Position numbers and translations under genes: made by a program
The notes under the pieces: model-generated
Database searches by the model: none
Told to the model about the DNA's origin: nothing
Seen by the model: only the letters and a program-made list of their open reading frames with translations
Source of the DNA: a virus
DNA: 48,975 nt
Virus record (IMG/VR): IMGVR_UViG_3300005466_000035
Coordinates: 1-48,975 of that record
Direction: 5' to 3' (one strand)
In this document: piece by piece, positions 2,705 to 47,600 of the stretch
Layout of the letters: the number at the start of each line of letters is the position of its first letter
Numbering within the stretch: the first letter of the stretch is position 1

Positions 2705-2909
2705 GGGTGGTAAGCAGGTGCCTTCGGTGATCAGTCGGGCCGACGAAGTGGATCGCGAGATGCACGAAGTCGAAGCCCGTAACTGGTGCATGGCTGCCGA
2801 CCGTGAAGGCGCGGACGGAAACCTGGAGGAGGCCAAGGCATTCGCTGCTGTCGCCCAGGCGCACGCCTCCGTCGCCTTCACCTATTTCTACGGGCGGTCC
2901 TACTCATGA
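2679..2909 (+). CDS. Small helical early protein, 76 aa
   Basis: The ATG start overlaps the previous gene and the stop overlaps the next ATG (ATGA, 2906). From about residue 20 to 68 it is helical, alternating acidic and Ala-rich segments, with a single Trp-Cys near residue 36. The N-terminal PSSNPQ tag is shared with the preceding gene. No known family; it could be a small helical-bundle protein. Confidence 0.6.
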
Positions 2910-5566
2910 GCCCCAAAGACTCCAGGGACCTAGTACCGGAGCAGCAGCAGGCGTGGTTCGACGGCTTGCCCGAGGAAGCCCGTAAGGCGGCGGAGCGCGC
3001 CGAGCTGGACAAGAACCTGCCGGTCCTCGCTTCGATCATGCAGGAGGTCGGGGTCGCTGGTCTGTGCGCCTGGGCTGCCTACCTCGACGTAATGGAGAGC
3101 GGCAGCGTTGACCCGTTCGACATGGGCGAGATCGTCGGCGCGGCCGTCCCCACGATCAAGCGCTCGGTCGAAAAAGAATCAGCGGAGCGCCTCAAGGAAG
3201 TAGACCGCCAGCGGGAGGAAGAACGGGCTCGGTACAGGCGCGAGAAGAAGCGGCGGAAGAAGGCCGAGGGGGCGAAGCGCCGTTGGAAGCGCCACCACGG
3301 CCAGCAGGTAAGGCGGGTGCAGCAGCTCGCCGAGTCTCTCGCCAAGGCGGTTGATGACCGGCGGTCCAACTTCAAGCGCTGGCAGGAAGACCTTCGCGTC
3401 CTCACCGCCCTTCAAAACCGGGTCACGAAAGTTCGGGCAGAGGCGAGCCGCCGACTCGAAACCGCAGAGGCCGAGCTTGAAGGCCCGGGCGCCTGCGAAG
3501 CGGACACCTACGTAGCGAAGACCTGCCGCGACCTCTTAGCGATTCTCGATACCCAGCCCTCTTCCAACCCGCCCCAGCAGGACCCCGCCGATGGCTTACC
3601 GCCGGAACTGGTCAAGGCCCTGCGCGATCCGGGCGTCACGATCCAGGCCGACCACGACACGAGGCTCGCCAACGGGCAGACGCTCGCCGAGCACCTGGAG
3701 GAATGGCGGAACGCGCCAAGCAACACCGCCAGCTCTATCTCCCCGCCCCAGCAGGACCGTGAGGACGGGGACGACTTCTGCGAGCGCTGCAACGGGAGCT
3801 TCGGCGAGATCGGTTGCGAGCACTGCAACCCGGCTGCCTACGTGGGGCTCTACAAGCGCGAGCGAGACGTTGAACGCGCCCACGTTGTCGAGCTTATCCG
3901 GGCCGTCGACAAGCACCGCGACACGCTGGACGCAGCCGCTGCCGGTGGTCCTCAACCGCTCGCCCGCGACGACGTGGACAACGCTCTCTACAACACTGCC
4001 CGCACGATCCTCCGCGAGCTGCCGCTTGTCGTTACCCAGCAGCTTTCTACCCAGCCCGAGGCGGACCCCGAGGTACCGGGAATCACCGGACACGAGATAG
4101 AGCCCGTTGCCGATGAGCTGGTGGCGGACCCCGAGGTACCACGGTGCGGTGAGGAGCTGGCGAAGACGATCCATGAGCGGGTATGGGGGCGAGACGCGGA
4201 GCACCCGGTGCATGGCGACTGGGAGCGGATGGCCGACGACTACCGGCAACGGATGGTCAAATCTGTCCGGCTCCTGGGCAGGTTGTTCGCCGAGTCACTG
4301 CAAGCCAAGGCTGCGGTTCAGCGGCAGATCCAAGACGACGAGCTCGAGCGGCGTCGGCCGGGGGCACCGGTCACCACCGCCGAGCATCGGGCCGACGCGA
4401 AGCGCATCGCTTTCGAGGAAGCGGCTCAGATACTCGACTGCCAGCCCACCCCCGAGCTACTGGGGGAGGAGAAAAGCAGCGACGAGGAGAAGGCGGTCGA
4501 TGTCCTGCGGCGCTTTATGTGCTGCAAGGCGGGCGAGCAGTTCGTTGACGAGAAGCTGCTACGGCCGTTCGGGTTCACGCTCGACGCAGGGCCGGTGGTC
4601 CGGGCCAACCGGAATCTCATCGACGCCTTGGAGTGGATCGAAGCCGAGACGGGTGAGCAGCACGTGCGGGACGCCGCCCGCCGCGCAGTCGACGCTGCCG
4701 CCTCCACCCAGCCTGTTTCGGAGTCACCGGGGGACAGCGGGGATCGGCTCGTTGCTGTGCTCCACGCGCTCAACGACTCCGACGTGGTGCTTGACGCCGC
4801 GCTGAAGAGGTTCGAGCAGGTGACCGAGACGGAGGACGTTCGTCGAGGCATCGAGCACGCCCTTGACACCGCCGTCTTCTCCGCCCGCACGATGGTCGAA
4901 ATCGACGGGGCGCCGACCGAGTGGGAGTGGGCCAGGCACACCCTCGAAGAGCACGGCGAGGAAGCGATGCCCGCCGGGACCAAGGATCAGATCGAGAAGC
5001 TCACCGAAGTCTGCCCGGAGTGCGAAGGCGAGGGCGGCGGCAGCGGGATCGACGAACCCACTTGGACTTGCGACCGCTGCGAAGGGCTCGGTCGCGTCAC
5101 GAAGGCCGCCAACCTCACCCAGCCAGTACCAGGGAACAGCGGGGAGGGGCCGGAGTTCACGGTCAACGCGCCGGGCGAGCTTTCGCCAAAGGACCACCAG
5201 GAAGTCGGGGAGCTGGTGAAGCTCGCCCACGCGAAGATGGCACCGGGATCGCTAGCCGCAGGCGTGGCTGCCCTGCGAGATGAACTGCGCGAGCTGGTGG
5301 AGCGCTTCGCACCGGCGCCGCCCCCGAACATGCCGCCGTCGGACCGCGCAGAAGGCGTCCGGGCCGTGCGTCGAGAGATAGCCGATCGCCTAGATGCGCT
5401 ACTCGCCACCGCCTCTACTCAGCCTCCCTCACCACAGGCCGAGGCAAAGTGCAAGCGGTGTCAGGATCGGCGCGTCGTTTATGAGCCGGGGACGCTTCAG
5501 ACGCACCCGCCCAGAGTCGGTTGCAACGTCCCTTGCCCCGACTGCACGGGCGGTGAGGGGCGATGA
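2906..5566 (+). CDS. Large modular coiled-coil/zinc-knuckle protein, 886 aa
   Basis: No single family fits. A highly charged coiled coil covers about residues 80-200. The rest is helical modules separated by low-complexity Thr-Gln-Pro linkers (about residues 214, 375-381, 600, 737 and 837). Three Cys clusters look metal-binding: CERCNGSFGEIGCEHC (about 291-306), a DnaJ-like CPECEGEGGG...CDRCEGLG (about 703-730) and a C-terminal CKRCQ...CPDC (about 849-880). It is far larger than its neighbours and may be a fusion of former small genes. ATGA overlaps occur at both ends. A scaffold or nucleic-acid-binding role is possible but not shown. Confidence 0.6.
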   Translation: MSPKDSRDLVPEQQQAWFDGLPEEARKAAERAELDKNLPVLASIMQEVGVAGLCAWAAYLDVMESGSVDPFDMGEIVGAAVPTIKRSVEKESAERLKEVDRQREEERARYRREKKRRKKAEGAKRRWKRHHGQQVRRVQQLAESLAKAVDDRRSNFKRWQEDLRVLTALQNRVTKVRAEASRRLETAEAELEGPGACEADTYVAKTCRDLLAILDTQPSSNPPQQDPADGLPPELVKALRDPGVTIQADHDTRLANGQTLAEHLEEWRNAPSNTASSISPPQQDREDGDDFCERCNGSFGEIGCEHCNPAAYVGLYKRERDVERAHVVELIRAVDKHRDTLDAAAAGGPQPLARDDVDNALYNTARTILRELPLVVTQQLSTQPEADPEVPGITGHEIEPVADELVADPEVPRCGEELAKTIHERVWGRDAEHPVHGDWERMADDYRQRMVKSVRLLGRLFAESLQAKAAVQRQIQDDELERRRPGAPVTTAEHRADAKRIAFEEAAQILDCQPTPELLGEEKSSDEEKAVDVLRRFMCCKAGEQFVDEKLLRPFGFTLDAGPVVRANRNLIDALEWIEAETGEQHVRDAARRAVDAAASTQPVSESPGDSGDRLVAVLHALNDSDVVLDAALKRFEQVTETEDVRRGIEHALDTAVFSARTMVEIDGAPTEWEWARHTLEEHGEEAMPAGTKDQIEKLTEVCPECEGEGGGSGIDEPTWTCDRCEGLGRVTKAANLTQPVPGNSGEGPEFTVNAPGELSPKDHQEVGELVKLAHAKMAPGSLAAGVAALRDELRELVERFAPAPPPNMPPSDRAEGVRAVRREIADRLDALLATASTQPPSPQAEAKCKRCQDRRVVYEPGTLQTHPPRVGCNVPCPDCTGGEGR

Positions 5567-20821: not shown

Positions 20822-22737
20822 GTTCCGCCCTCGCCAAGAAAGACGAACTCTCCGAGGACCAGAAACGGTGCCTCCAGATGGTCACCGACCGCTTCAACGC
20901 GGCCGACAAGCTTCACTCCCAACTGGTCCCTCGATGGAACAACTTCTACGGTCTGTCCCGTAACTGGCGGCGCCTCGCCTCCGCCCACCAGCAGGCGAGC
21001 AGCGAACGGGATCGAGACGTGGTGCAGCAGGAAATCCGCCGCCACTTCGGACAGGAGCTGTTCGTCCCCTACTGCTTCACGGTGATCGAGACCAACGTGC
21101 CGCGGGTGCTCTCGCGGACGCCTCGGTACAGGGGGCTGCCCTGTGGCTCCGACGTTCCGGCGGAGGCGTGTACAGCGCTCGAGCGGCTCTACGAACGCGA
21201 CTCGGCTGCCATGAAGTACGAGCGAAAGCTTCAGGAAACGGCCCGCTCCGGCTTCCGCTACGGGCTCGGTGTCCAGAAGGACTACTGGGAAAAGAAAACC
21301 CGCGACGGCAAGAAGATCGAAAAGTACTTCTTCGAGAAAAAACAAAAAGTGGTCGACGACCAGATCGTCGTCTTCGAGGGCCCGCAGGTCGAGTCGGTTG
21401 ACATCTACGACTTCTTCTGGGACCCCACCGCCCGGGACCTGGAGACCGCTTCCTACGTCATCCACCGGACCTGGCGCTCGGGCCAGTACATCAAGGACCG
21501 GGTGCAGGAAGGGCGGATGAACCGCGCCGAAGGCAAGGATCAGGGCTGGGTCGAGCTTGACCTTGAAGCCGTCGCCAAGATGGGTTCTGCCACGAAACGC
21601 GGCGAGGCGTGGGACGGCCGGCTGCAGGCTTCCGGTCTCGGCGGCTACGAAACTGAAGGCAACAGCCTCCACGAGGTCTGGGAGTGCCACGACCGCGATC
21701 AGGTCATCACGATCCTCGATCGCGAGCTGGTTGTGCAGGAGGACATCAACCCGTTCCTGCACGGCGACTTCCCGTTCCAGATCTTCCGGCCCACCATCGT
21801 CGAGCAGGAGTTCTGCGGAATCGGGGAGGTGGAGCCGATCGCCCACCTGCAGTGGGAGCTCAACACCCTTCGCGGGCAGCGGCGCGACGCGGCAACCCTC
21901 GCCCTCAACCGCGGCTACTTCTACCAGGTGGGCACTATCGACCCGTCCAAAATCGTGACGGGTCCCGGTGTCTTCAACCCGGTGTTCGCCAATCCCAGCG
22001 AGGTCATCCAGCCGATGCCCTTCATGGACCTCCCGCAGTCGGGAGAGTCGGAGGAGGCGGCGATCAAGGGCGATATCGAGCTCACGAGCGCAATGTCCGA
22101 AGCGGTAGTCGGTTCGGGCGGGGAAGAAACCGCCACCGGCACCCAGCTCGTACAGGCCGCCGCCAACCTGCGAATCAAGCAGAAGGCGAAGAACCTGCAC
22201 GTCGACCTGCTTGTTCCCGAGGCCGCCCAGCGCAAGGCCCTCTACGAACAGTTCTACGTCAGCGAGGAACGCAACCAAGAGGTGCGGATCGAAACGCCCA
22301 CCGGCTTCGCCTTCGTCGATGTCCCGGCTGAGCTGATGAGCGCGAACGTCGAAATGGTCCCAGTCGACGGCTCTACCGAAGCTGACGACCCCGCTCAGAA
22401 AAAGCACGACGCGATGGAACTTGCCAACTCGCTAGCTCCCTTCGCCGAACAGGTGAACGTGGGGGAGCTTGTGAAGTACATCCTCGGCGAGCACGGCATC
22501 GAAAACGCCGGTGACTGGATCAAAGAAGAACCGGCTGGCCCGGACGTGGGCGCCATCGTCGAGCGGATCGGCCAGGCGATGCGAGAGGCCGGTGTCGACG
22601 AAGCGGAGATCACGCAGATCCTCGAAGCCGCTCTTCAGTCCCACGAATCTGCGCAACCCGAAGAAGGGTCCGGCGAACAGCCCGGATCGGAATCCACGGC
22701 GGCGGCAGCCCCGGCGCCCGAACCCCAAGGAGCCTGA
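20818..22737 (+). CDS. Portal protein, 639 aa
   Basis: Size, place after terminase and the sequence pattern fit a podovirus-type portal. It has an N-terminal helical clip (LHSQLVPRWNNFYGL), the FFWDPTARDLETASYVIHR segment typical of portal wings (about residues 200-218), a long stem/crown region with HLQWELNTLRGQRRD (about 344-358) and an acidic, Pro/Ala-rich C-terminus. The portal forms the dodecameric ring through which DNA enters and leaves. GTG start in a 4-nt overlap. Confidence 0.8.
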   Translation: MSSALAKKDELSEDQKRCLQMVTDRFNAADKLHSQLVPRWNNFYGLSRNWRRLASAHQQASSERDRDVVQQEIRRHFGQELFVPYCFTVIETNVPRVLSRTPRYRGLPCGSDVPAEACTALERLYERDSAAMKYERKLQETARSGFRYGLGVQKDYWEKKTRDGKKIEKYFFEKKQKVVDDQIVVFEGPQVESVDIYDFFWDPTARDLETASYVIHRTWRSGQYIKDRVQEGRMNRAEGKDQGWVELDLEAVAKMGSATKRGEAWDGRLQASGLGGYETEGNSLHEVWECHDRDQVITILDRELVVQEDINPFLHGDFPFQIFRPTIVEQEFCGIGEVEPIAHLQWELNTLRGQRRDAATLALNRGYFYQVGTIDPSKIVTGPGVFNPVFANPSEVIQPMPFMDLPQSGESEEAAIKGDIELTSAMSEAVVGSGGEETATGTQLVQAAANLRIKQKAKNLHVDLLVPEAAQRKALYEQFYVSEERNQEVRIETPTGFAFVDVPAELMSANVEMVPVDGSTEADDPAQKKHDAMELANSLAPFAEQVNVGELVKYILGEHGIENAGDWIKEEPAGPDVGAIVERIGQAMREAGVDEAEITQILEAALQSHESAQPEEGSGEQPGSESTAAAAPAPEPQGA

Positions 22738-26664: not shown

Positions 26665-26988
26665 GTGGAACCCTTACAGGACACCCCCGCACTCCCGATC
26701 GCCCTCTCGGACTCGGCGACTCGCCAGGTCGAGATCGGCGAAGAGGTCAAGGACCTACTGAAGCATCCCGGTTGGGAGCACCTGAAGGCCGGCACCGCCA
26801 CCTACCAGCGGATGCTCACCGCGCAGCTGATGGGGGTCACTGGTAGTCCGGACGCTTCGAAGTTCAACGCCCTCACGGGCGAGATGAAAGGGGTCGCACA
26901 GATCGAGCCGATCGCCCGCGGCCTCATCGACGTAGGAGAGCAGGCCAGGGCGCAGATGCGTGAGGCCGAGATCAAGGAGGAGTCCTGA
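26665..26988 (+). CDS. Head-assembly region protein, 107 aa
   Basis: GTG start without a clear RBS, 22 nt after the CACACTGC motif. Mostly helical (VEIGEEVKDLLKHPGWEHLK, then TYQRMLTAQLMGV) with an acidic tail. Its stop shares a base with the scaffold ATG. Position suggests a head-assembly helper. No family recognised. Confidence 0.6.
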   Translation: MEPLQDTPALPIALSDSATRQVEIGEEVKDLLKHPGWEHLKAGTATYQRMLTAQLMGVTGSPDASKFNALTGEMKGVAQIEPIARGLIDVGEQARAQMREAEIKEES

Positions 26989-27728
26989 TGGAGGCAAGCG
27001 TCGCAGGGATGCCGCCGGCAGCCGCCGACCAGCAGACCGTGCAGCCCACCGAGTCCGCAGTCCAGCCGACCGAGCCGGTCGCGCCTGAGCCGACCTCCCC
27101 GCAGGAGCCGGCCAAAGAGGGCATGGAAGGTGCTTTCGCCGAGATGAAAGCCTCCTTCGACCAGTTCATGGCGAGCCAGAACCCGGCCGAGGAGCCGAAC
27201 CTGGCGACCGACCTTCTGTCCCATCTGGAGCAGGAGGCCGCCGGGGATGCCGGGCAGCAGGAGCCGGTGGCCCCGGAGCCCGGTGCGCCGGAGCCTCAGC
27301 AGGGGCTACAGAGCCCGGAAGCGCAGGCTGAGCTCGAGCAGGCAAAAGCGCTGATCGCGAGCGTGGTCCAAGAACAGGTCACCCCGCTCCAGCAGGAGCT
27401 CGCGGCCCGCGACATGAAAGCTCTGGCCGAGCGTTATCCGGACATCAACTCCAAAGAGATCCTGCCGGGGCTGACCACGCAGATCAACGAGCTGGTGGCG
27501 TTGACCGGAAACCACGACCTGATCTACAACGCTCAGGTCGTCGAGAGGCTTTACAAAGTGGTGAAAGCCGAGCAGGCGGACGCCGCAGCGGTACCGGCCG
27601 AGCAGGCCGCACAGACGGGAGCGTCGATCGAGACGCACGCGGGTCAGACCCAGGCGGGCAGCCCCTCCCTAGCAGACAACTACAAAGAAGCTGTCTACCA
27701 GCCGCCGAAACCTTCGGTCTTCGGCTGA
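26988..27728 (+). CDS. Scaffolding-like protein, 246 aa
   Basis: Pro/Glu/Gln-rich, disordered first half (about residues 1-110), a helical middle (QAELEQAKALIASVVQEQ ... LAERYPDI, about 110-190) and a short basic-aromatic C-terminus (YKEAVYQPPKPSVFG). This composition and its place directly before the capsid gene are typical of phage scaffolds, which fill the procapsid and leave before or during packaging. Confidence 0.75.
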   Translation: MEASVAGMPPAAADQQTVQPTESAVQPTEPVAPEPTSPQEPAKEGMEGAFAEMKASFDQFMASQNPAEEPNLATDLLSHLEQEAAGDAGQQEPVAPEPGAPEPQQGLQSPEAQAELEQAKALIASVVQEQVTPLQQELAARDMKALAERYPDINSKEILPGLTTQINELVALTGNHDLIYNAQVVERLYKVVKAEQADAAAVPAEQAAQTGASIETHAGQTQAGSPSLADNYKEAVYQPPKPSVFG

Positions 27729-27763: not shown

Positions 27764-28945
27764 ATGGCAATGGTCACGGGAGAGAGAAGGACCGACAACG
27801 TCGCGTCCGTTCAGCGTTACATCGACATCGCCCCCGACATCATCGCGCTTGAGCCCGAGGCTGCGCCCCTCACCGTCATCAGCCGTCGCTTCCGCGACGG
27901 CGGCAACACCAAAGCGACCGGCGATCCGAAATTTGCCTGGGTCGAAAGCGAGCGCGACACCCGCTGGGACGCGATCAACAAATCCGGCGGTTATGAAGCG
28001 AGCGGCACCGAACTCGTTGTCGACACCGAAGACATCTTCGCGGCCGGGCAGATCGTCCTGGTTCCGCGGACGGGCGAGGAGCTGTACGTCCTCAGCAAGC
28101 CCGGCTCGAGCAAAATCAAAGTGACCCGCGGCTTCTCCGGCACCACGGCGGCGGCTCTGAACGACAACGACTCACTCTTCGTGATCGGGGAAGTGTCCGA
28201 GGAGTTCGCCAAAGCGCCGACCCCGCGGTCCAAGAACCCGACCGAAGTGACCAACCTCACCGAGATCACCCGAACCTCGATCGAGGCGTCGGGGACCTGG
28301 ATGAGCTCGCAGAATCAGACGAACCCGCACGACTGGGTCTACCAGCACCGCGAGCGCAACCGGGAACACCTGATCGACCTGGAGACGAAGGCGATCTTCG
28401 GTCACAAGGGCGAAACCACCGGTCCGGAAGGGCGCAAACTCCGCACCAGCGGGGGACTGCTCTCCTTCTACACCGAAAACAACCAGGATGCCGGCGGCAC
28501 CCTCACCGAGGCTGAGTGGGAGTCCTTCGTACGGACGGTTTGCCGCTATGGCAGCAAGAAGACCGCGTTCGTCTCGCCGCTGGTCCTGTCGGTGATCAAC
28601 AACTTCGCCGTCGGGCGGTTGCAGGTCATCCAGGCAGATCACGACACGACCTACGGGCTCAATGTAACCAAGTACATGAGCGCCCACGGCGAAATCAACC
28701 TCGTCAAGCACAACCTCCTGGAGGGATCGGTCTGGGGCGGCTACGCGATCGTGGTCGACTTCGAGCAGGCCGCGCCGAAGTGGAGGCCGCTGGCGGGAGG
28801 TCCCGGCGGCTCCCGCGAAACGAAGCTCCTGACCAACCGCCAAGAGAACGATCGCGACGGTCAGATGGACGAGATCCTGACCGAGGGCGGGTACCAGTTC
28901 CCGCAGCCGAAAAAGGGCGGCGTCCTGACCGGCGTCACCGGCTGA
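27764..28945 (+). CDS. Major capsid protein, SU10-like, 393 aa
   Basis: After CAGGAGAA. The sequence fits the SU10-type HK97-fold capsid family: an N-arm (ASVQRYIDIAPDIIALEPEA), an inserted beta domain ending IVLVPRTGEELYVL (about residues 100-116), the central ...TSIEASGTWMSSQNQTNPHDW spine-like segment and ERNREHLIDLETKAIFGHKG (about 200-220). Length is usual for the family. It builds the icosahedral head. A strong hairpin lies just downstream. Confidence 0.85.
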   Translation: MAMVTGERRTDNVASVQRYIDIAPDIIALEPEAAPLTVISRRFRDGGNTKATGDPKFAWVESERDTRWDAINKSGGYEASGTELVVDTEDIFAAGQIVLVPRTGEELYVLSKPGSSKIKVTRGFSGTTAAALNDNDSLFVIGEVSEEFAKAPTPRSKNPTEVTNLTEITRTSIEASGTWMSSQNQTNPHDWVYQHRERNREHLIDLETKAIFGHKGETTGPEGRKLRTSGGLLSFYTENNQDAGGTLTEAEWESFVRTVCRYGSKKTAFVSPLVLSVINNFAVGRLQVIQADHDTTYGLNVTKYMSAHGEINLVKHNLLEGSVWGGYAIVVDFEQAAPKWRPLAGGPGGSRETKLLTNRQENDRDGQMDEILTEGGYQFPQPKKGGVLTGVTG

Positions 28946-29593: not shown

Positions 29594-30207
29594 CCACCCG
29601 CCTCAACGACTTCGCGGGCTTTAATCTCTCCGCGGAAGAGGCACGCGACCTGCTGAACGCGGGTCGTGACCGTTTCGCTCTGGAGTCAAAGTACCCCAGG
29701 AAACGGGCGAACCTCGGCCCGACGGTCGCCGGCCAGGCAATTTACGGCTGGCCCGAAGATTTCCTGCTGCCGCTCTCCGTTTCCCTGGGTCTAGGCGCCC
29801 ACTTGGAACCTTCGGACCCCGACACCGTCCGCGAATACGAAACGGGAGCACTCAGGCTCGGGGCGGACCGCGTGTACTACGAGGACCCCGGCGAAGATGG
29901 GATTCGAAAGCTGGTCTTCTACCCCGCTCCTGTCGAAGGCCAGGCGGTGAATCTGCTCTACGTCTTCGCGCCAGAGCCGATGACCGAAGACTCCGACGAA
30001 CCCTCCGAGTTTCCCCGCCCCTTTCACGAAGCCCTTATCCCTGCTGCGGCCGCCCAGTACTACGAGACGGTCGAGGACAATCCGGAACTCGCCCAGCGCA
30101 ACTCCGAACAGCTCGATCTCTGGGTCGGCAAACTCGTTCGCTACGACAACCAGCGCCGCGGCGGGTCAGACCCGTTCATGGTCCCGATTCAGGGGATCTC
30201 AGCATGA
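29575..30207 (+). CDS. Head-tail adaptor-like protein with lost ATG start, 210 aa
   Basis: Frame and composition continue upstream of the first permitted start (TTG 29803). The protein in that extension (TTRLNDFAGFNLSAEEARD, NAGRDRFALESKYPRKR) is the helical head expected of podovirus adaptors. GGAGG at 29564-29568 stands 6 nt before ATC at 29575. If base 29577 were G, ATG would start here and overlap a TGA of the upstream gene (ATGA), like other junctions in this genome. So it is either ATC-initiated, damaged or misread. The shorter product from 29803 would lack about 76 residues. Confidence 0.65.
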   Translation: MNCGQLTTRLNDFAGFNLSAEEARDLLNAGRDRFALESKYPRKRANLGPTVAGQAIYGWPEDFLLPLSVSLGLGAHLEPSDPDTVREYETGALRLGADRVYYEDPGEDGIRKLVFYPAPVEGQAVNLLYVFAPEPMTEDSDEPSEFPRPFHEALIPAAAAQYYETVEDNPELAQRNSEQLDLWVGKLVRYDNQRRGGSDPFMVPIQGISA

Positions 30208-32866: not shown

Positions 32867-33778
32867 ATGGCGATGGGGCTCGGACAAGCAGGGCGGCCAC
32901 GTAGGCCGAAAAAACCGGTCAGCGGCGGAGTGCCTGCGGCTGCTCCCAAAGCAGTGTCACCTCCTGATCCCTACGGGCTGACCCAGCCGCCTGCGATGTC
33001 ATTTGATCCGGCCCTCGAGGCCCAGCGCCGGGCTGCGCAGCGAGGACTCGAAGACACCGAAGCTGACATCACGACTAAGCGCCACTTCGGCGAACGTGAC
33101 ATGAGCCTCGCTCTGCGCGGTATCCGCATCAACGCCTCACGCAAGCGGGCCGACACGAACCGGGAGTTCGGTCGGGGGGAGCAGCGGCTGGCGAACCAGG
33201 AAACTGATACGAAAACTGATGCTGGTCGACAGCAGGAGGACTTCCACACCCGGTTAGCAGACATCGGCCGCCAGTTCGCGGAGCTGGGCCAGCGACAGGG
33301 CGAAGGCGCAAACGCCGCCGGGGTCAACGACGCCGGCACGGCAGCGGCATCTGCAGCGGCTCGGGGCCGTAACCAGGTCATCGCAGAGGCGCCGATCCAC
33401 ACCGCCGAAGGTCGTCTGCAGGAGGACCTGATGACGACGCTCGACCGGATCGCGCAGGCCCATGGCAACCTCGAGTCCGACCGCGACCGCACGCTCAACC
33501 GCCTGACCCAGGATCGGGATATCCAGCGTCGGGAAGTCCACCGTGAAGCGGGACGCAGCCTGTTCGGCCTCGGTCGCGAAGAAGAACGGGCGAAGCGGGA
33601 GGGAGCGATCACGGATACCGATTTGCTGGAACAGGAGATCTTTGCTGCCCGCCAGAGCCACCCCGGCGCGTTTTCCAAAACCGGGCAGAAGAACGGCCAG
33701 ACGGGCGGGGGTAATAACCGGTCCGCCCCGAAACCCGCCGTCGGTGGCGGAGCTCCCGCGAAAAGGAGGAGACGCTGA
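32867..33778 (+). CDS. Coiled-coil virion protein, 303 aa
   Basis: Basic, Pro-rich head (GRPRRPKKPVSGG), then almost continuous charged helix (about residues 47-250, rich in Arg/Gln/Glu/Asp) and a basic tail ending in KRRRR. Placement before the large internal proteins and lack of enzymatic motifs suggest an internal or ejected virion protein. The sequence is not similar to known T7-type core proteins by eye. Confidence 0.6.
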   Translation: MAMGLGQAGRPRRPKKPVSGGVPAAAPKAVSPPDPYGLTQPPAMSFDPALEAQRRAAQRGLEDTEADITTKRHFGERDMSLALRGIRINASRKRADTNREFGRGEQRLANQETDTKTDAGRQQEDFHTRLADIGRQFAELGQRQGEGANAAGVNDAGTAAASAAARGRNQVIAEAPIHTAEGRLQEDLMTTLDRIAQAHGNLESDRDRTLNRLTQDRDIQRREVHREAGRSLFGLGREEERAKREGAITDTDLLEQEIFAARQSHPGAFSKTGQKNGQTGGGNNRSAPKPAVGGGAPAKRRRR

Positions 33779-34614
33779 TGCCGCGGCGCATTCCCACCGT
33801 AGGAACGAAACAGCTGCACAGCGCCCAGCTCTCGCCCCAGGAGAGGCGTCTGCTGCACAAGAGGGCCGCTGCCGCAAACCGTCGCGAGATGGCGCCAGTG
33901 CTTGCGGCTGACAGGGCGGCATTCGGCGGGATCAACCAGGACTATCGCCAGGAAGCCAGTTCGGTCCGCGGTGCTGCCCAGATGACGGAGGAGATGCTGT
34001 CTCAGGCCCTCGCGGGTCTGAAGGCCTCCGGGCTGAAGGGCAACTACCTCCGCCAGGCGATGAACGAGTTGACCTCCCGTCAGGGCGACGCGGCCGCCGC
34101 GATCCCGTTCCTGCTCTCCGACGCTCGCGAAGCCAAAGCTGACGCGACGGGGGAAGCGCGGCAGCAGCTCATCCAGGATCGAGCGGCGATGCAGCAGGGG
34201 GTCGCCCAGGACTTCAATTCATCGCTTGAGTCCGCCCGCGGCGATGCCTCTCAGGTGCTGAAGGAACAGCAGGAGAAACGCGAATCCGAATCCGAAGACC
34301 ACGGGGGCCAGGGGATGTTTGACTCCAAGGACCTCCAGAACGCGAAGCTCGCCTTGCGGGACGCGCTGCAGACGTGGTCTGAAAATCCGACCGTCGAAGG
34401 ACCCGACGGGGAGGACGTGCCGCTGCGCCAGCTCAACCCCCTGAAGACCCGCGCCGACTGGCTCCGGTTCGCCAACGGCCTCGACCACCAGTACTCCGGG
34501 TTCGGCCTCGCCGAAATCAACCATGTGATCCAGCAGCTTCTTACCGACCGACAGCGCCACGAACACGAAGGCCGCCTTCCGCAACCGGGGGTCCCCGGGC
34601 CTGGCCGGGGGTAG
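33778..34614 (+). CDS. Helical virion protein, 278 aa
   Basis: TGATG coupling with the previous gene. The protein is rich in Ala, Gln and Arg; long helices (about residues 20-160) are followed by an EDHGGQGMFDSKDLQNAK segment and a second helical domain. Probably an internal virion or ejection protein by position. No family recognised. Confidence 0.6.
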   Translation: MPRRIPTVGTKQLHSAQLSPQERRLLHKRAAAANRREMAPVLAADRAAFGGINQDYRQEASSVRGAAQMTEEMLSQALAGLKASGLKGNYLRQAMNELTSRQGDAAAAIPFLLSDAREAKADATGEARQQLIQDRAAMQQGVAQDFNSSLESARGDASQVLKEQQEKRESESEDHGGQGMFDSKDLQNAKLALRDALQTWSENPTVEGPDGEDVPLRQLNPLKTRADWLRFANGLDHQYSGFGLAEINHVIQQLLTDRQRHEHEGRLPQPGVPGPGRG

Positions 34615-34617
34615 GCC

Positions 34618-37600
34618 GTGCCGACGTCGGGCGAAAAGTTCAGCGGGGGCTATAAGGGGACGCCGCGGCGGAGGCATCAGCGGGTCTCGCGACAGTCGGG
34701 GGGCACGTCCGGCGATCTTGCGATCCCGCACAAGACCAAGACCCCGGTCAAGGCCTACGACCCGGCGGCTCCCCGAACTCCGGTCCAGAAGGAGATCCGG
34801 CGCGAAAAGCACTTCCTGGCGCCCCTTCGCGACACGCTCCAGACGGCACTTACCGGTGGATACGACGCCGTCTACGGCGAGGGTGGCCAGCACATCTCCC
34901 AGGTGCAGGACGACCTCCGCCAGCGCTACGGGCAGGCCGGAGTCGACCTCGTCGAGAAAGCACTCGCCCAGCGAGACGCCGAAACCCAAAACCTGAAAGA
35001 GGACCCGATCGCCGAACTCGCAATCGGCACCCTCGCCACGGCAGGGGTCGGCGGGATCGCGAACCTCGTCCGGGGCGGTGGCACGGCTGCGCTCGCGGCT
35101 GCTGAGGCTCAGGCCGCGAAGGTTGGAGCAACGGAGGCGGCGAGCGAGGCAACTGGAGGAAGCGCACGAGCCGCACTTCAGGCCCTCATCAGAGGCGGAG
35201 CCTCCAAAGCTTCCCCCGTTACCCGGGCCATCCCGCAGAGTGTGAAAACCGCAGCAAAGGTGGCAGCTCGCGGGGCCTCCTATCCGGTCCGCCACCCGAT
35301 CACCTCGCCTCTGGCGATCGAGGCCCCCGGAGCCCTGATCCACAAAGACCCCGGAGCCCTGGTCAAGGCATTGGAAGGCAAAGGGGTCTACGGCGATATC
35401 GCGGGCGGCCTCGCCGGCGCCGCGTCCCACATCTCCCCGGTCCTCGGCGAAGGCGTCTCACTGCCAGCGGCCGTGCTGCCTTCCGCCTACCTGACCGGCA
35501 AGGCGGGAGTGGAGGCCGCGAAAGGCGACTCTTCCGAGTTGAACAACCTCATCGCCGAATGGAAGCGGACGGGAATCCTGCCCGCGCTTGCCGAAGGCGA
35601 CGTCGGCAGGGCCGCCCACAACCTCGGCGAGCATCCGCTGTACGGGCTGTTGGAAGGATCGGGTGCCGTCAATGCAGCGGGCCGGGTGGCAGGCGCCGGA
35701 GCTCGAGCGATCCCCGGAGCTGATCTCGCTTCCCTGGAGCGCAAGCCACTGCCTGTAGAGGGCACCGGCATCAACGTCCAGCGCGAGTACAGCCGGGACC
35801 TCTTCCGGCAGATGGGCCAGCGCGCCTATGACCGGAGTCCGATGGGCTTGCGTGTGAGGCCGGACACCTTTCGGGGCCGCCACTACCAGAAGGAGGCAGC
35901 CAACCGATTCGGCTCAGGGCAGGAGGCGATTCGCCGAGAGCACGCCCGCCAGGACATCCAGGCCCTCAAAGGCATCCTCCCCAAGAAGGGGCTGGTGAAG
36001 AGGCTCGACCGTAAGAGCGCGGAAGTGGTGAACCTCGCCGTTGAGCGGATCATCCAGAAGCCCGAGTCCTTCTTCAACGATCTCTCCGATTACAAGGACA
36101 TGCTGGAAGCCGCGGCCAAGGAGACCCTTGACAACGGCAAACCTCGCCTCAACAAGCGAGAGCTTGCGGCTAACAGGGAGCTGGTGAAGCAGATCGAGGC
36201 GGGTATCAAGCGCGGGAACCCCGAGCACGTCGTTCATGCCGCCAACGCCTTCATCGACCTGCAGCAGCCGATCCTCGAAGAGCTGGTCGACCTCAAATTG
36301 CTGACGCCCGACCAGGCCGAGAAGGCCAGCGCGATTCCCTTCGCCCGGGTCCACATGGGGGCGGGACATCACGAGGAGCACGGCGTGGTCGATCTCAACG
36401 GTGAGCCACTGAGCTTGGAGGCGATCAAGGCGGAGATGGAGCGGCGTGGGGTGGAGGCGCCCGGCTTTCTCAGCCACCGAGCTCCCGCGAACTCGGACTT
36501 CTATCGCCCGTCCTTCGGCGGCGCCACTCTTGACAAGGGAAGCCGTACCGGCCAGGCGGTGGCCTCCGGAACGCAGATGGGCGGGATCGAGGGGATGGTC
36601 CGCCAGCTGCGCCGCTCCCGCGGTCTTGTCGATCGCGCCCGCGGCTGGAACGAGGCGATCAATCGCTTCGGCATTGAGGTCAAAGGCGTCGACACGATGG
36701 CCGAGGCGAAGCGGGTCATGGAGGATCCGGCGCGCTACGGCCTTGACCCCGGTATCAACCCGGTTCCGGTTCCTCGCCATCCGTTCGGAGCGAAGAAACG
36801 AGAGATGGAAGGGGCGCTCGAGCATCAAAGCCCGGCGCTCGCGGACGACGCCGCCTCGGCGGTCATCGCCAACGGCCTCGACCAGGGCCTCAAGGGCACC
36901 CTCCCTGACGACGCGAAAATCATCTTCTTCCCGGAGAAGGTCGCGAAAGAGCTGCGAGCAGACGCGACTCCGAGCGGGGAGGGGCTGAAGGCGGCACAGG
37001 CCGCGACGACTGCTTTCAAGCGCGCGGTGCTCCCCTTCAGCCCGAGCTTCTACGTCGGCAACACCTTCGACAACCTGATCCGCACGACGCTGGCCGGAAT
37101 CAACCCGGCTCATTTCGCGGTTGGCGCCAAGGTCGCCCACCAGATGGACCAGGAGCAGCGGGCGCAGGTTCTCGCCGGCGCCCACTTCAGCTCGGTCGAT
37201 GCCCTTGCCCCCCACCGCAGCGTTGAGGCGGTTGTCACCGGATACGACCCGCTCTCGAAGAGCGTCCGCCAGTTCGCCGAGTGGTCGCGGAAACACGGGT
37301 GGAAACAGGCGGCTGTCAAAGCGGCGCCCAAAGTCCTCAGCAAGGCATCGCACTACCTGCTTGCGGCGAACGCTCTGCTCACCGAGACGCTGCCGCAGTA
37401 CGGAGTGCTGGGCAAGGTTGCCTTGAAAGAGATGCGGAAGACCCAGGGGTCATGGACCAAGGCGATCACCCATCTGGACGAGGCCTCGCAGGATTTCGCG
37501 AAAGGCCTCCACGACCCGGATAAGGTGATCCGCCTCCAGAAGGACTTGGAGGCCGTCTACGGCAACTACACCCGGATGTCTCCCGGCGCTCGCAAGGTTC

Positions 37601-38253
37601 TCTCCACGATCACGCCGTTCTGGACCTGGATGCGGGCGGCCTACACGTACGTCTTCTGGAACATGCCGGCGCATCACTCGGTAGCCACCGGCCTGCTCGC
37701 CGCGACCGCCAACGCGACCCGAGCCGAGCGCGAACAGTGGGGGCTCAACCGCGAAGGCGACAAACCGGTCCCGACCTATTACCAGGGCATCCCCCTTCCA
37801 GACGGTGGAGTCATCCCGCTCGCCAACTACAACAGCTTCGACTTCGCCTCCGATCCCCTGGACGCTCTGGCCCGACTCCCGTTCCCTCAGATCAGGAACG
37901 TGGCCGAAGCCCTCGCCGGGCGGGACTGGAAAGGGGAGGAAATCAAGGGCGGAGACGGCGACCGACTCGCGGCCGCTACGTGGGCGGCGGCCGGGGCGTT
38001 CGTTCCCTTCGTCAACACCCTCACCGAAGAAGAGGAAGGGCACAAGGTATTCGCTCCGCATCTCTCCCTGCCACACAAGGTGAGCGCCGAGAAAGTTGCC
38101 AAGTCGCGGGAGGAGTGGGAACAGATCTCGGTCCCCGTCGAAGGATCGTCCGGCGGGTCGTCCTCCAGCGCAGGCGGCGTCGACTACGGCCGTGTCTTCA
38201 GTGGCGGCGGCGGTTCGTCCGTGGACTACTCGAAGGTGTTCTCAGGCGGATGA
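34618..38253 (+). CDS. Large internal virion protein, 1211 aa
   Basis: By far the largest late protein, GTG start 3 nt after the upstream stop. It is largely helical, with Ala/Gly-rich hydrophobic segments (about residues 138-160 and 240-290) that could insert into a membrane, a central helical part (about 400-520) and a conserved-looking end (LSTITPFWTWMRAAYTYVFWN, about 995-1015; cited in part). The C-terminus repeats VDYGRVFSGG and VDYSKVFSGG. The N-terminal 60 residues are paralogous to those of 38396. Size and place suggest an ejection protein that forms a channel through the envelope. Confidence 0.7.
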   Translation: MPTSGEKFSGGYKGTPRRRHQRVSRQSGGTSGDLAIPHKTKTPVKAYDPAAPRTPVQKEIRREKHFLAPLRDTLQTALTGGYDAVYGEGGQHISQVQDDLRQRYGQAGVDLVEKALAQRDAETQNLKEDPIAELAIGTLATAGVGGIANLVRGGGTAALAAAEAQAAKVGATEAASEATGGSARAALQALIRGGASKASPVTRAIPQSVKTAAKVAARGASYPVRHPITSPLAIEAPGALIHKDPGALVKALEGKGVYGDIAGGLAGAASHISPVLGEGVSLPAAVLPSAYLTGKAGVEAAKGDSSELNNLIAEWKRTGILPALAEGDVGRAAHNLGEHPLYGLLEGSGAVNAAGRVAGAGARAIPGADLASLERKPLPVEGTGINVQREYSRDLFRQMGQRAYDRSPMGLRVRPDTFRGRHYQKEAANRFGSGQEAIRREHARQDIQALKGILPKKGLVKRLDRKSAEVVNLAVERIIQKPESFFNDLSDYKDMLEAAAKETLDNGKPRLNKRELAANRELVKQIEAGIKRGNPEHVVHAANAFIDLQQPILEELVDLKLLTPDQAEKASAIPFARVHMGAGHHEEHGVVDLNGEPLSLEAIKAEMERRGVEAPGFLSHRAPANSDFYRPSFGGATLDKGSRTGQAVASGTQMGGIEGMVRQLRRSRGLVDRARGWNEAINRFGIEVKGVDTMAEAKRVMEDPARYGLDPGINPVPVPRHPFGAKKREMEGALEHQSPALADDAASAVIANGLDQGLKGTLPDDAKIIFFPEKVAKELRADATPSGEGLKAAQAATTAFKRAVLPFSPSFYVGNTFDNLIRTTLAGINPAHFAVGAKVAHQMDQEQRAQVLAGAHFSSVDALAPHRSVEAVVTGYDPLSKSVRQFAEWSRKHGWKQAAVKAAPKVLSKASHYLLAANALLTETLPQYGVLGKVALKEMRKTQGSWTKAITHLDEASQDFAKGLHDPDKVIRLQKDLEAVYGNYTRMSPGARKVLSTITPFWTWMRAAYTYVFWNMPAHHSVATGLLAATANATRAEREQWGLNREGDKPVPTYYQGIPLPDGGVIPLANYNSFDFASDPLDALARLPFPQIRNVAEALAGRDWKGEEIKGGDGDRLAAATWAAAGAFVPFVNTLTEEEEGHKVFAPHLSLPHKVSAEKVAKSREEWEQISVPVEGSSGGSSSSAGGVDYGRVFSGGGGSSVDYSKVFSGG

Positions 38254-38396
38254 CCTACAGGGCCGGACCAAATTCAGCGACGGCCCACAGGCCCATCCAC
38301 ACGAGCACCGCAATGGCGCCGATCAGTGCCAGCGCTTTGATCCACAACGGCGTATCGATGTCTCCCCACATAGGGAGTAAGGGTAGCGCGGCCTGA
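38250..38396 (+). CDS. 48-codon plus-strand ORF, doubtful
   Basis: It starts with an ATGA overlap on the upstream gene and ends sharing base 38396 with the next ATG, so it fits the coupling pattern. The peptide is low-complexity, rich in Ser, Ala, His and Pro, without a recognisable fold. The opposite strand encodes a convincing membrane helix in the same place. Confidence 0.3.
   Translation: MTYRAGPNSATAHRPIHTSTAMAPISASALIHNGVSMSPHIGSKGSAA
38255..38371 (-). CDS. Antisense micro-ORF, 38-aa membrane protein candidate
   Basis: ATG to TAG on the minus strand encodes MWGDIDTPLWIKAL followed by IGAIAVLVWMGLWAVAEF: a Trp-flanked single transmembrane helix filling most of the peptide. It resembles the style of the 44-aa membrane protein at 15244. 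It lacks an obvious Shine-Dalgarno, and it would be the only antisense gene within the late operon. Confidence 0.4.
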   Translation of the reverse strand: MWGDIDTPLWIKALALIGAIAVLVWMGLWAVAEFGPAL

Positions 38397-40372
38397 TGCC
38401 CACGAGCAAATTCAGCAAGGGCTACAAGAAGAAGCCGGGTTCAACTCCGCCGCAGGGACCTCCCCCGGCTCCTCCGAGTCACAGCGGCGGGACCTCCGGG
38501 GACCTCTCGATTCCCGGCTACACCCCTTCGACTCCGACCACGCCCTACAACCCGAGCGCACCCCCGACTCCGGTCCAGCAGCAGATCCGGCACAAACGGG
38601 CGACGCCTTCCACCTCTACCGCCAACCCGCTCGCGGACCAGTACCTGCTCTCCCGCCTGGTCGACCTCGTAACCCCCGGCCCCACGGCCGCTGAGATCGC
38701 TCAGGCCGCCTCCACCCTCGGAGTGAAGCCGAAGGCCCTCAGCGCGGGAGTGTCTAGCGCTGCTGGGGGTGTGAGCGCCGGGATCAAAGAGCTGGGACGA
38801 GACGTAGCCGAAGGCGTGAAAGAGGCGACGAAGCTTCCGGACCACCGGGTCGTGCGCGCCTTCGGTCACAAAACGCTCGGGACCCCAACCCTTCGTCAGG
38901 TCTCCCAGGCTTACGACAAGGGCCAACTGGGGGTCAACCGGAAAGGCAAGCTGACGGTGCCCGCGACGAGACACGCCGCGCAAGGTCTTGCCGCTGCTCG
39001 GAAGGAGTATCGGACGAGAGCCGTACCCCACGTCAGCGGTGTCCCGAACGAAGACCAGAGGCGCTTCGCCATCTCGCTCTCCAAGCACTCAAAGCTCCCC
39101 CTGAAGCTAGCGGCTGAATGGGCACTCCAGGAGGGCGGCGGCTGGGGCTCAGATGGAGTCAGTGGAGGTGAAGCCGGAGAACAGAACTGGCTCGGCGTCG
39201 GCTATCCCGGGGAACCGACGGCCATGAGCCGGTCCCACTATTTCAACGGCGTCACTCCCGAGCAGGCCGGTAAGAACACCGCCCTCTGGCTTGAAGGAAA
39301 GATCGGCGGGGAGTTCGACTACCACGCCGCCGATTCGATCATCGGCATCTCACGCCTAGCCAAGAGCGGGGCGTCGGAAGAAGAGATCCGCCGATACATC
39401 GAAGGACCGTCGGCTTGGGGTACCGGGCAAATATCTCAGTCGGGAGTGACCGTGTCCGGGGGCAAGGCTCCGCCTGCGATTACGCAACAACTCCAGGCGG
39501 CATCCCGCTTGGCCGCCAGCCTCGGTATTCCGACGCACCAAGCAAAGAACGCCGAGCCCGAAAAGCCGCCGTGGCTACTGGCGGGTGGCCCGAAGAACGT
39601 CAAGCACGCAGTCGAAGTTGTCGGCAAGGAGCCACTGAAGAAGTGGTTGAAGCCGACGAACTCCGGAACGGCTGGCTATTGGCGGAACATCGCGACGCTC
39701 AACCCGGTGTTCGCGGGCCAGCTTGTCAAGTTGGCAAAGGCCACGGGGGAACCGATCGTCGTCACTAGCGGCTACCGATCCACGGAGGATCAGGAAGCCA
39801 TCGATCCGGGAACCAACCCGGCGGCGCCCCCCGGCTATTCAGCACATCAATTCGGCATGGCAGCCGACACCGAAATGTCCCAGCGACAGGCGGAACTCGC
39901 ACCCCAGTTCGGGCTTGAGCATGGCGCAGCCGGTCCGGGCGTGGCTGACCCGCCACATACGGAGCTAACCGACATGGGGCTCATCAAGAAGGCGATGCAG
40001 TACGGACCGATCCGATCCGGCTACGCACCTGACGGGTGGCAGTCGGTTGGTGATTTGGGAAGTTTCACGGCTCCGGCGAATCTCGCTGAAGGCGGGGAAA
40101 GCTACGGCGGAGGGGCGGCTACCGGTGCGGCGATAGGCGGTGCGCTACCGACTGCAAGCGGCGGCGGCGCGCCCAGCGTGGCCGCTCAGAAGAAGCAGGG
40201 GATCGCCCCGGCCGTCTCATTGGGTCAGGTCCCCATCAGCTCTCTGCTCGACGTCCACTCCCCGCTCCCGCGGGCATTCCAACAGTTCGAGCTAGGCGAA
40301 GCGCCTGAAGAAGAAGGATCGGGGGTAGACGAAGGCACCATCGCTCGCATCCTCAGGGGGAGGCGGCGGTAA
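38396..40372 (+). CDS. Virion cell-wall hydrolase: glycosidase-like plus M15 peptidase, 658 aa
   Basis: The N-terminus shares a tag with the 1211-aa protein (MPTS..FS.GYK, SGGTSGDLSIP). A lysozyme/glucosaminidase-like domain (about residues 215-350) contains LAAEWALQEGGGWG, with a candidate catalytic Glu, and later WLEGKIGGEFDY. A second domain (about 435-545) has the M15 pattern: VVTSGYRSTEDQ, YSAHQFGMAAD (zinc His and Asp) and DPPHTEL (third zinc His). It would cut both glycan and peptide bonds during DNA entry. Gly/Ala-rich tail. Confidence 0.75.
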   Translation: MPTSKFSKGYKKKPGSTPPQGPPPAPPSHSGGTSGDLSIPGYTPSTPTTPYNPSAPPTPVQQQIRHKRATPSTSTANPLADQYLLSRLVDLVTPGPTAAEIAQAASTLGVKPKALSAGVSSAAGGVSAGIKELGRDVAEGVKEATKLPDHRVVRAFGHKTLGTPTLRQVSQAYDKGQLGVNRKGKLTVPATRHAAQGLAAARKEYRTRAVPHVSGVPNEDQRRFAISLSKHSKLPLKLAAEWALQEGGGWGSDGVSGGEAGEQNWLGVGYPGEPTAMSRSHYFNGVTPEQAGKNTALWLEGKIGGEFDYHAADSIIGISRLAKSGASEEEIRRYIEGPSAWGTGQISQSGVTVSGGKAPPAITQQLQAASRLAASLGIPTHQAKNAEPEKPPWLLAGGPKNVKHAVEVVGKEPLKKWLKPTNSGTAGYWRNIATLNPVFAGQLVKLAKATGEPIVVTSGYRSTEDQEAIDPGTNPAAPPGYSAHQFGMAADTEMSQRQAELAPQFGLEHGAAGPGVADPPHTELTDMGLIKKAMQYGPIRSGYAPDGWQSVGDLGSFTAPANLAEGGESYGGGAATGAAIGGALPTASGGGAPSVAAQKKQGIAPAVSLGQVPISSLLDVHSPLPRAFQQFELGEAPEEEGSGVDEGTIARILRGRRR

Positions 40373-47370: not shown

Positions 47371-47600
47371 TGGGCGTCCTCCTCCAGGGCAACTTCGGTT
47401 GCTTCCGAACCGTGGAGCTGACCAAGGCGCAGTTCGCCGCCCACCCCGAAGTTCGTCGCTCGCGACGCTGGGTTGAGCTGCGGGTCCGAGAAGGACTGCC
47501 TTCCCGGATGGACCGTAATCGTCGTATGTTCCCTCTCGACGAGGGCCTGGCCTGGTTAAAGGACCACGGCTGGCTAGGAAGAGAGAAGGGAGCAGCCTGA
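47370..47600 (+). CDS. Excisionase-like winged-helix protein, 76 aa
   Basis: VELTKAQFAAHPEVRRSRRW, then VELRVREGLPSR, RMFPLDEGLAWLKDHGW (about residues 14-68), is a compact winged-helix with basic recognition segment, as in recombination directionality factors. Size, place directly before int and coupling (TGATG at 47368; GTGA-like overlap with int) support the call. It would bind the att arms and switch the integrase to excision. Confidence 0.7.
   Translation: MGVLLQGNFGCFRTVELTKAQFAAHPEVRRSRRWVELRVREGLPSRMDRNRRMFPLDEGLAWLKDHGWLGREKGAA

Follow-up and report, generated by a model that had tools for sequence, protein, structure and literature searches.

A shared N-terminal tag on two putative ejection proteins of an SU10-type short-tailed phage

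Introduction

Why should two large proteins of one phage, unrelated over nearly all of their length, begin with the same sequence? The question is raised by the IMG/VR virus record IMGVR_UViG_3300005466_000035, a DNA of 48,975 bases analyzed over its entire length (the window), in which the genes for proteins A and B encode a common N-terminal tag. The portal, capsid and adaptor proteins of the window match the Pfam families PF23899, PF17236 and PF24175, all beyond the curated cut-offs, which identifies an SU10-type short-tailed phage. The genes for A, B and the upstream proteins O1 and O2 occupy the place in gene order that matches gp20-24 of SU10 (Kuravirus), which, in the excerpted text of PMC9509320, are that phage's ejection proteins and are located after the tail genes. 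By virtue of gene position and domains, A and B are taken to be the putative two large ejection-type proteins of the phage.

One tag on two unrelated bodies

BLASTP aligns residues 1-64 of A with residues 1-68 of B (34 identities in 70 positions, E=7e-12), and every other A-versus-B piece has E of at least 0.5. The first-pass annotation, which had described a common N-terminal tag followed by unrelated bodies, is borne out, as are the coordinates and sizes that it gave for the two open reading frames (ORFs; Table 1). Its phrase "the two largest internal virion proteins" holds less well, since an 886-aa ORF (2906-5566) exceeds B in size and "internal virion" is a matter of gene position and domains. 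The tag spans about 65 residues and comprises three blocks, MPTS..FS.GYK, SGGTSGDL.IP and APxTPVQxxIR. The first 100 residues of A and B align with a local score of 133, to be compared with a mean of 32 and a maximum of 56 for 500 shuffles, none of which does as well. The patterns F[SA].GY[KQ], SG.TSGDL and TPVQ..IR each occur exactly twice in the six-frame translation of the window, one occurrence lying in A and the other in B. Residues 1-70 of B are predicted to be disordered (block-mean predicted local distance difference test score, pLDDT, 30-39), with a short helix predicted at residues 59-63.

The composition of these termini brings up an alternative: they may be basic, proline-rich tails of no particular kind, which bind DNA or just keep the terminus disordered, the likeness of A to B being convergent. 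Lysine and arginine are indeed in excess over aspartate and glutamate in both window tags (15 to 5 in A, 8 to 1 in B, the latter with 25% proline). However, exact motifs recur, composition-preserving shuffles stay below the observed scores, and tags of relatives presented below are close to neutral (16 basic and 15 acidic residues in G018, 7 and 8 in B of G014); this explanation is very improbable.

The tag in related phages

Relatives are found among IMG/VR contigs. The tblastn searches of 50,697 phage records with A, with the fused protein of G018 (see below) and with a 76-residue tag turned up no relative among named phages, and the sole match of B to phage records is to Geobacillus virus E3, over the peptidase part. 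No further phage with the B domain came from a repeat scan for that domain or from a degenerate scan at the DNA level; one weak, partial match in an Opitutales contig, from a genome-contig scan, was not used. A homologues are present in 15 further phage records, two of which are near copies. The close relatives among IMG/VR contigs are G002 (L004, A 77-79% identical), G010 (L047) and G008 (L054/L095, with the near copy G009), the A body of G008 being 84% identical to that of the window (952 of 1134 residues). Seven genomes (G012-G018), each with an A homologue by profile, come from a motif scan, and it was the B protein or its domain that led to G001, G005, G006 and G007. In three phages, A-like and B-like parts lie in one polypeptide of ~2,000 residues (L001 4901-11362, L009 4936-10848 and L102 12644-18721): G001 and G007 have both parts in a single polypeptide, and in G018 one 2026-aa frame matches A and, weakly, the B domain.

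Part of this sample was retrieved by motif. L047, L051 and L052-L054 come from a scan with the TPVQ motif (10 rows, six judged real by reading, L004 among them), and L057, L059-L061, L063, L065, L067 and L077 come from a scan with the HEGR motif, introduced below (28 rows, read as 14 real and 14 chance matches). The presence of one motif in these records is by construction, because that motif fetched them. What is independent of the selection is the place of the motifs (the termini of A, B, the fused protein and O2), the degenerate copies in A of G017 and O2 of G013, and the FS.GYK tag of G014. The analyst picked the start codon of each A and B homologue among ATG, GTG and TTG, and assigned A of G006 by position and by-eye N-terminal likeness to A of G015, on a contig that stops within the gene and has no match to the A3 profile.

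In close relatives the tag persists, heading A in all five readable records (G008, its near copy G009, G002, its near copy G011, and G010) and B in both of those that include B (G008 and G009). The A and B tags of G008 are identical at 61 of 71 residues and both head their proteins with HEGRLPQPGVPAGPRN; the head, RMHEGRLPQPGVPAGPRNSP, is followed by SGGTSGD and APPTPVQ..IR blocks, as in the window. The window heads are of the FS.GYK type, whereas those of G008 are of the type HEGR..QPGVP, and within each genome the heads match; the head type has therefore changed in both proteins. A of G002 and of G010 has a head of the same kind as G008, these contigs stopping before B. Both A and B of G013 carry EHEGRVPQPGVP, and in G017 there are three HEGR copies on A (two off consensus, one a bare HEGR) and two on B. 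B of G014 begins MPTSSSYFSSGYKGKKKKPEPPRQSGATSGDLSIPGY, a tag of the window type, on a genome whose A is untagged, and A of G006 begins MPTDVQKFSTGYQGG. All four occurrences of F[SA].GY[KQ] in the ORFs of 20 loci are at N-termini of A or B. In eight genomes A and B are separate and both N-termini can be read; A and B share the tag in four of these, namely the window, G008 and the diverged phages G013 and G017, and two of the three fused proteins (G001 and G018) carry one tag, at the N-terminus only. A tag profile run against 5,678 ORFs finds 18 at E<=0.013, all of them A, B, fused A+B or O2, although seven of these are training sequences and most of the other loci were fetched by motif; the next real match is at 0.12 and the best reversed decoy at 0.11.

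Matching within genomes and selection on the tag

The A and B tags outscore 500 of 500 shuffles in each of the four sharing genomes. When A and B are re-paired among the eight genomes, near copies being excluded (L052/L053, of L054; L051, of L004), 20 of 40,320 pairings reach the observed A-B sum (34 at 80 residues, 22 at 120), in a small set and with statistics that ignore relatedness among the phages. Leaving out the window or G008 gives 20 of 5,040 in either case, and three control slices of 100 body residues give 11,105, 2,249 and 27,403 of 40,320. A first permutation test, performed before G014 was known, gave 2 of 5,040; the later test includes G014.

Between the A and B tags of G008, the proportions of synonymous (pS) and non-synonymous (pN) differences are 0.52 and 0.13 (pN/pS 0.24), while the A bodies of the window and G008 differ by pS 0.57 and pN 0.10. 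The A-B likeness in G008 is therefore kept by selection on the protein and not by a recent copy, and the tag pS also led to rejection of recent gene conversion as its sole cause. Between window and G008, the A tag has a pN of 0.36 despite the 84% identity of the A body. The tag thus evolves fast among phages yet stays matched within a phage.

These numbers bear on a second alternative: that the shared tag is a relic of duplication or gene fission, a start region copied when one gene was split, with no present role. The union of A-like and B-like parts in G001, G007 and G018 is what such a history would leave behind, and the window tags themselves have a high pN/pS (0.73; pS 0.44, pN 0.32). The low ratio in G008, at a pS close to that between A bodies of different phages, speaks against a relic, as does the constancy of HEGR residues over varying third codon positions; nor would a joint change of head in both genes be expected of one. 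Such a relic is improbable.

A related motif at the end of a third protein

The first-pass annotation had proposed looking for the tag on other proteins, and the HEGR..QPGVP motif is found also at the C-terminus of O2, in several genomes and in the window itself. O2 has counterparts in G008, G002, G010, G013 and G014, and the motif ends O2, within its last few residues, in all five (as HSGR in G013) and in the window. A scan at a threshold of at least 9 of 12 positions finds 24 instances in 21 loci, near-identical L004 and L051 counting separately, and every instance is terminal: N-terminal in A (11), B (four) and fused proteins (two), C-terminal in O2 (seven). Shuffled ORFs hold no instance at 8 or more of the 12 positions. 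Third codon positions of the motif vary and its residues are constant, on which grounds a role at the level of DNA was rejected. O1 (32867-33778), for its part, has SFDPALEAQRRAAQRG near residue 45, a loose resemblance, by eye only, to the tag block YDPxAPxTPVQxxIR.

Related motifs at the end of O2 and at the heads of A and B are as expected where parts meet, and the multiple HEGR copies on A and B of G017 suggest multivalency. Both observations favor a tag that acts after ejection or in the stored core, stitching A, B and O2 together much as the "molecular tape" of T7 gp16 does: residues 157-228 of gp16 stitch gp15 subunits together in the excerpted account of PMC8954989. Against this stands the retention of the tag by the fused proteins of G001 and G018, in which stitching of A to B is needless. 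A stitching role is possible but rather unlikely.

Comparison with known systems

The closest parallel is the capsid targeting sequence (CTS) of T4, like the window tag a short N-terminal sequence common to unrelated internal head proteins, there IPI-IPIII and Alt (partial texts of PMC3012670 and PMC5694885); A and B, as putative internal proteins, share that feature. The T4 CTS is, however, 10-20 residues long, compared with ~64-71 residues and several motifs here, and it is cut by the gp21 protease, whereas no prohead protease family was detected in the 27 window ORFs scanned with Pfam. Also unlike the CTS, a related motif lies at a C-terminus, that of O2, and the heads vary between phages. 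Longer, and only putatively cleaved, the tag would work like a CTS but is not classed as one of the T4 type. Shared N-terminal propeptides that target and are then removed by a prohead protease are known in T4 and in SPN3US (the same partial texts), and the tag might be another. Apart from the cell-wall peptidase of B, however, the same 27 ORFs, portal-to-capsid region included, yield no protease family, and the extreme C-terminus of O2 is not a place expected for such a propeptide, which leaves this proposal with little probability.

For entry, ten residues at the N-terminus of T4 IpIII are enough, and P22 gp7 and gp20 come into the procapsid by way of their N-terminal parts, scaffold being required (excerpts of PMC8402733). 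A shared tag is not described in that material for P22 gp7, gp16 and gp20, which are likened to A and B by description only. Neither this motif nor a tag common to ejection proteins of podoviruses came up in literature searches, which covered listings and the excerpts cited here.

An A profile finds no significant match among 13 SU10 proteins, gp20-24 included (best E 0.015, gp08), and SU10 gp19-gp24 have no common N-terminal tag that could be found; N-terminal likeness of gp20 and gp24 is marginal (1 of 200 shuffles as good). SU10 gp21 and gp22 (L105 21904-23937) are alike over their first 100 residues (score 111, 0 of 200 shuffles). Outside the phages, encapsulin cargo-loading peptides are short linear motifs at the end of unrelated proteins that send these into a shell; not being a phage ejection system, they too are likened by description only.

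A docking tag for head assembly?

The first-pass annotation suggested a targeting signal for packing into the head or for ejection. Part of this stands: a genuine tag, predicted to be disordered on B, precedes unrelated bodies, recurs on A and B of relatives, is under selection in G008 and is present once, N-terminally, in two of three fusions, and the related motif of O2 carries the idea over to a third protein. Packing and ejection are not separable from sequence. That the tag is a disordered docking element recruiting A and B, as putative ejection proteins, into the procapsid, in the manner of the T4 CTS or of P22 ejection-protein N-termini, is a reading that we hold with about even confidence; virion location, partner and recruitment step are the parts of it that we infer. 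In this flexible tag, short linear motifs joined by proline- and glycine-rich linkers would bind one common site during head assembly. The scaffold, or else some other protein of the core or capsid, is the likeliest place of that site, and binding to it would bring the A and B polypeptides into the procapsid prior to DNA packaging. The one N-terminal tag of the fused proteins of G001 and G018, taken with one tag per half in the four split phages, fits a rule of one tag per polypeptide.

Several facts weigh against recruitment by docking. Sharing between A and B is absent from four genomes: G012 is tagged on A alone and G014 on B alone, G006 has just the head motif, on A, and G005 has no tag. 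None of the motifs was found in the fused protein of G007. From these exceptions it follows that other routes must exist and that the tag is no fixed requirement in the wider clade. The window O2 keeps HEGR although the heads of A and B there have changed to FS.GYK, which does not suit a one-site key for all three proteins. Constraint on the window tags is weaker than in G008, and the predicted structure of A is of low confidence (mean pLDDT 47).

A tentative extension, less probable than recruitment itself, is that the tag is an exchangeable address code. Head modules (FS.GYK or HEGR..QPGVP..PR) would be carried by every polypeptide that enters the core and replaced jointly on A and B upon a change of partner; one matching tag per polypeptide would be enough for fusion, fission and enzyme-module swaps in the ejection proteins to be tolerated.

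Features of the locus

The candidate tag partner is the product of an ORF that is a putative scaffold by position and has no match in Pfam or PHROG. The large terminase of the window is at 18191 and the integrase at 47600.

B is putatively a virion protein that degrades the cell wall. Hydrolase domains above cut-off are VanY in the window, NlpC/P60 in B of G008 and M15 in G007. The catalytic C-terminal module is exchanged among phages (VanY, NlpC/P60 and M15 as above, with a further NlpC/P60, below cut-off, in G005). The best VIA-align match of the B middle domain is the autolysin 3fi7 (Z 5.6, root-mean-square deviation 3.5, 114 aligned), followed by lower matches to MltF, goose lysozyme, MltE and SltB1, which weakly suggests, for the predicted model, a resemblance to lysozyme-type folds. 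The remaining VIA-align rows, mostly helix-only matches, were set aside. Foldseek of B gave nothing at E<=0.001, and a B profile had no meaningful match among PDB sequences.

The C-terminus of A is a short motif in 2-4 copies that varies by phage (window, G005, G008, G012, G013, G015, G016 and G017), and the fused proteins of G001, G007 and G018 have a comparable repeat at the A/B boundary. The gap between A and B holds a 38-codon antisense ORF (38255-38371, minus strand) for a hydrophobic, membrane-spanning-like peptide beginning MWGDIDTPLWIK. It is conserved in G008 (pS 0.66, pN 0.19), and hydrophobic antisense ORFs also lie in the gap in G012, G013 and G017, with none in G014. The sense frame over the same interval is open too (ratio 0.58), and there is no clear ribosome site.

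Table 1. Coordinates of the tag, its motifs and associated features in the window
Feature	Position	Strand	Evidence or remark
Portal protein, SU10 type	20818..22737	+	PF23899 E=5.6e-9
Putative scaffold, candidate tag partner	26988..27728	+	position only, directly 5' of capsid gene
Major capsid protein, SU10 type	27764..28945	+	PF17236 E=1.5e-36
Adaptor protein, SU10 type	29803..30207	+	PF24175 E=7.5e-9
Protein O2, 278 aa, upstream neighbour of A, third protein of set	33778..34614	+	
HEGRLPQPGVPGPGR at O2 C-terminus; heads A and B in relatives	34564..34608	+	
Protein A, 1211 aa, GTG start, large, mostly helical, ejection-protein position	34618..38253	+	
A N-terminal tag, residues 1-64	34618..34809	+	BLASTP to B tag E=7e-12; tag profile score 92.7
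A head motif FSGGYK	34639..34656	+	
A middle motif SGGTSGDL	34696..34719	+	
A distal motif TPVQKEIRREK	34777..34809	+	
A C-terminal tandem repeat VDYGRVFSGGGGSSVDYSKVFSGG	38179..38250	+	
Protein B, 658 aa, putative cell-wall-degrading virion protein	38396..40372	+	VanY Pfam 6.6e-6, residues 442-505
B N-terminal tag, residues 1-68	38396..38599	+	BLASTP to A tag E=7e-12; tag profile score 93.0
B head motif FSKGYK	38411..38428	+	
B middle motif SGGTSGDL	38483..38506	+	
B distal motif TPVQQQIRHKR	38567..38599	+	
B middle domain, residues 215-354, lysozyme-like fold suggested	39038..39457	+	VIA-align

Significance

Recruitment of ejection proteins into the heads of short-tailed phages is poorly understood beyond T4 and P22. 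The present tag is compact and is found again in diverged phages, and its natural swaps and fusions amount to a ready set of constructs for tests of recruitment; should it prove to work with a reporter, phage heads could be loaded with proteins by a new tool.

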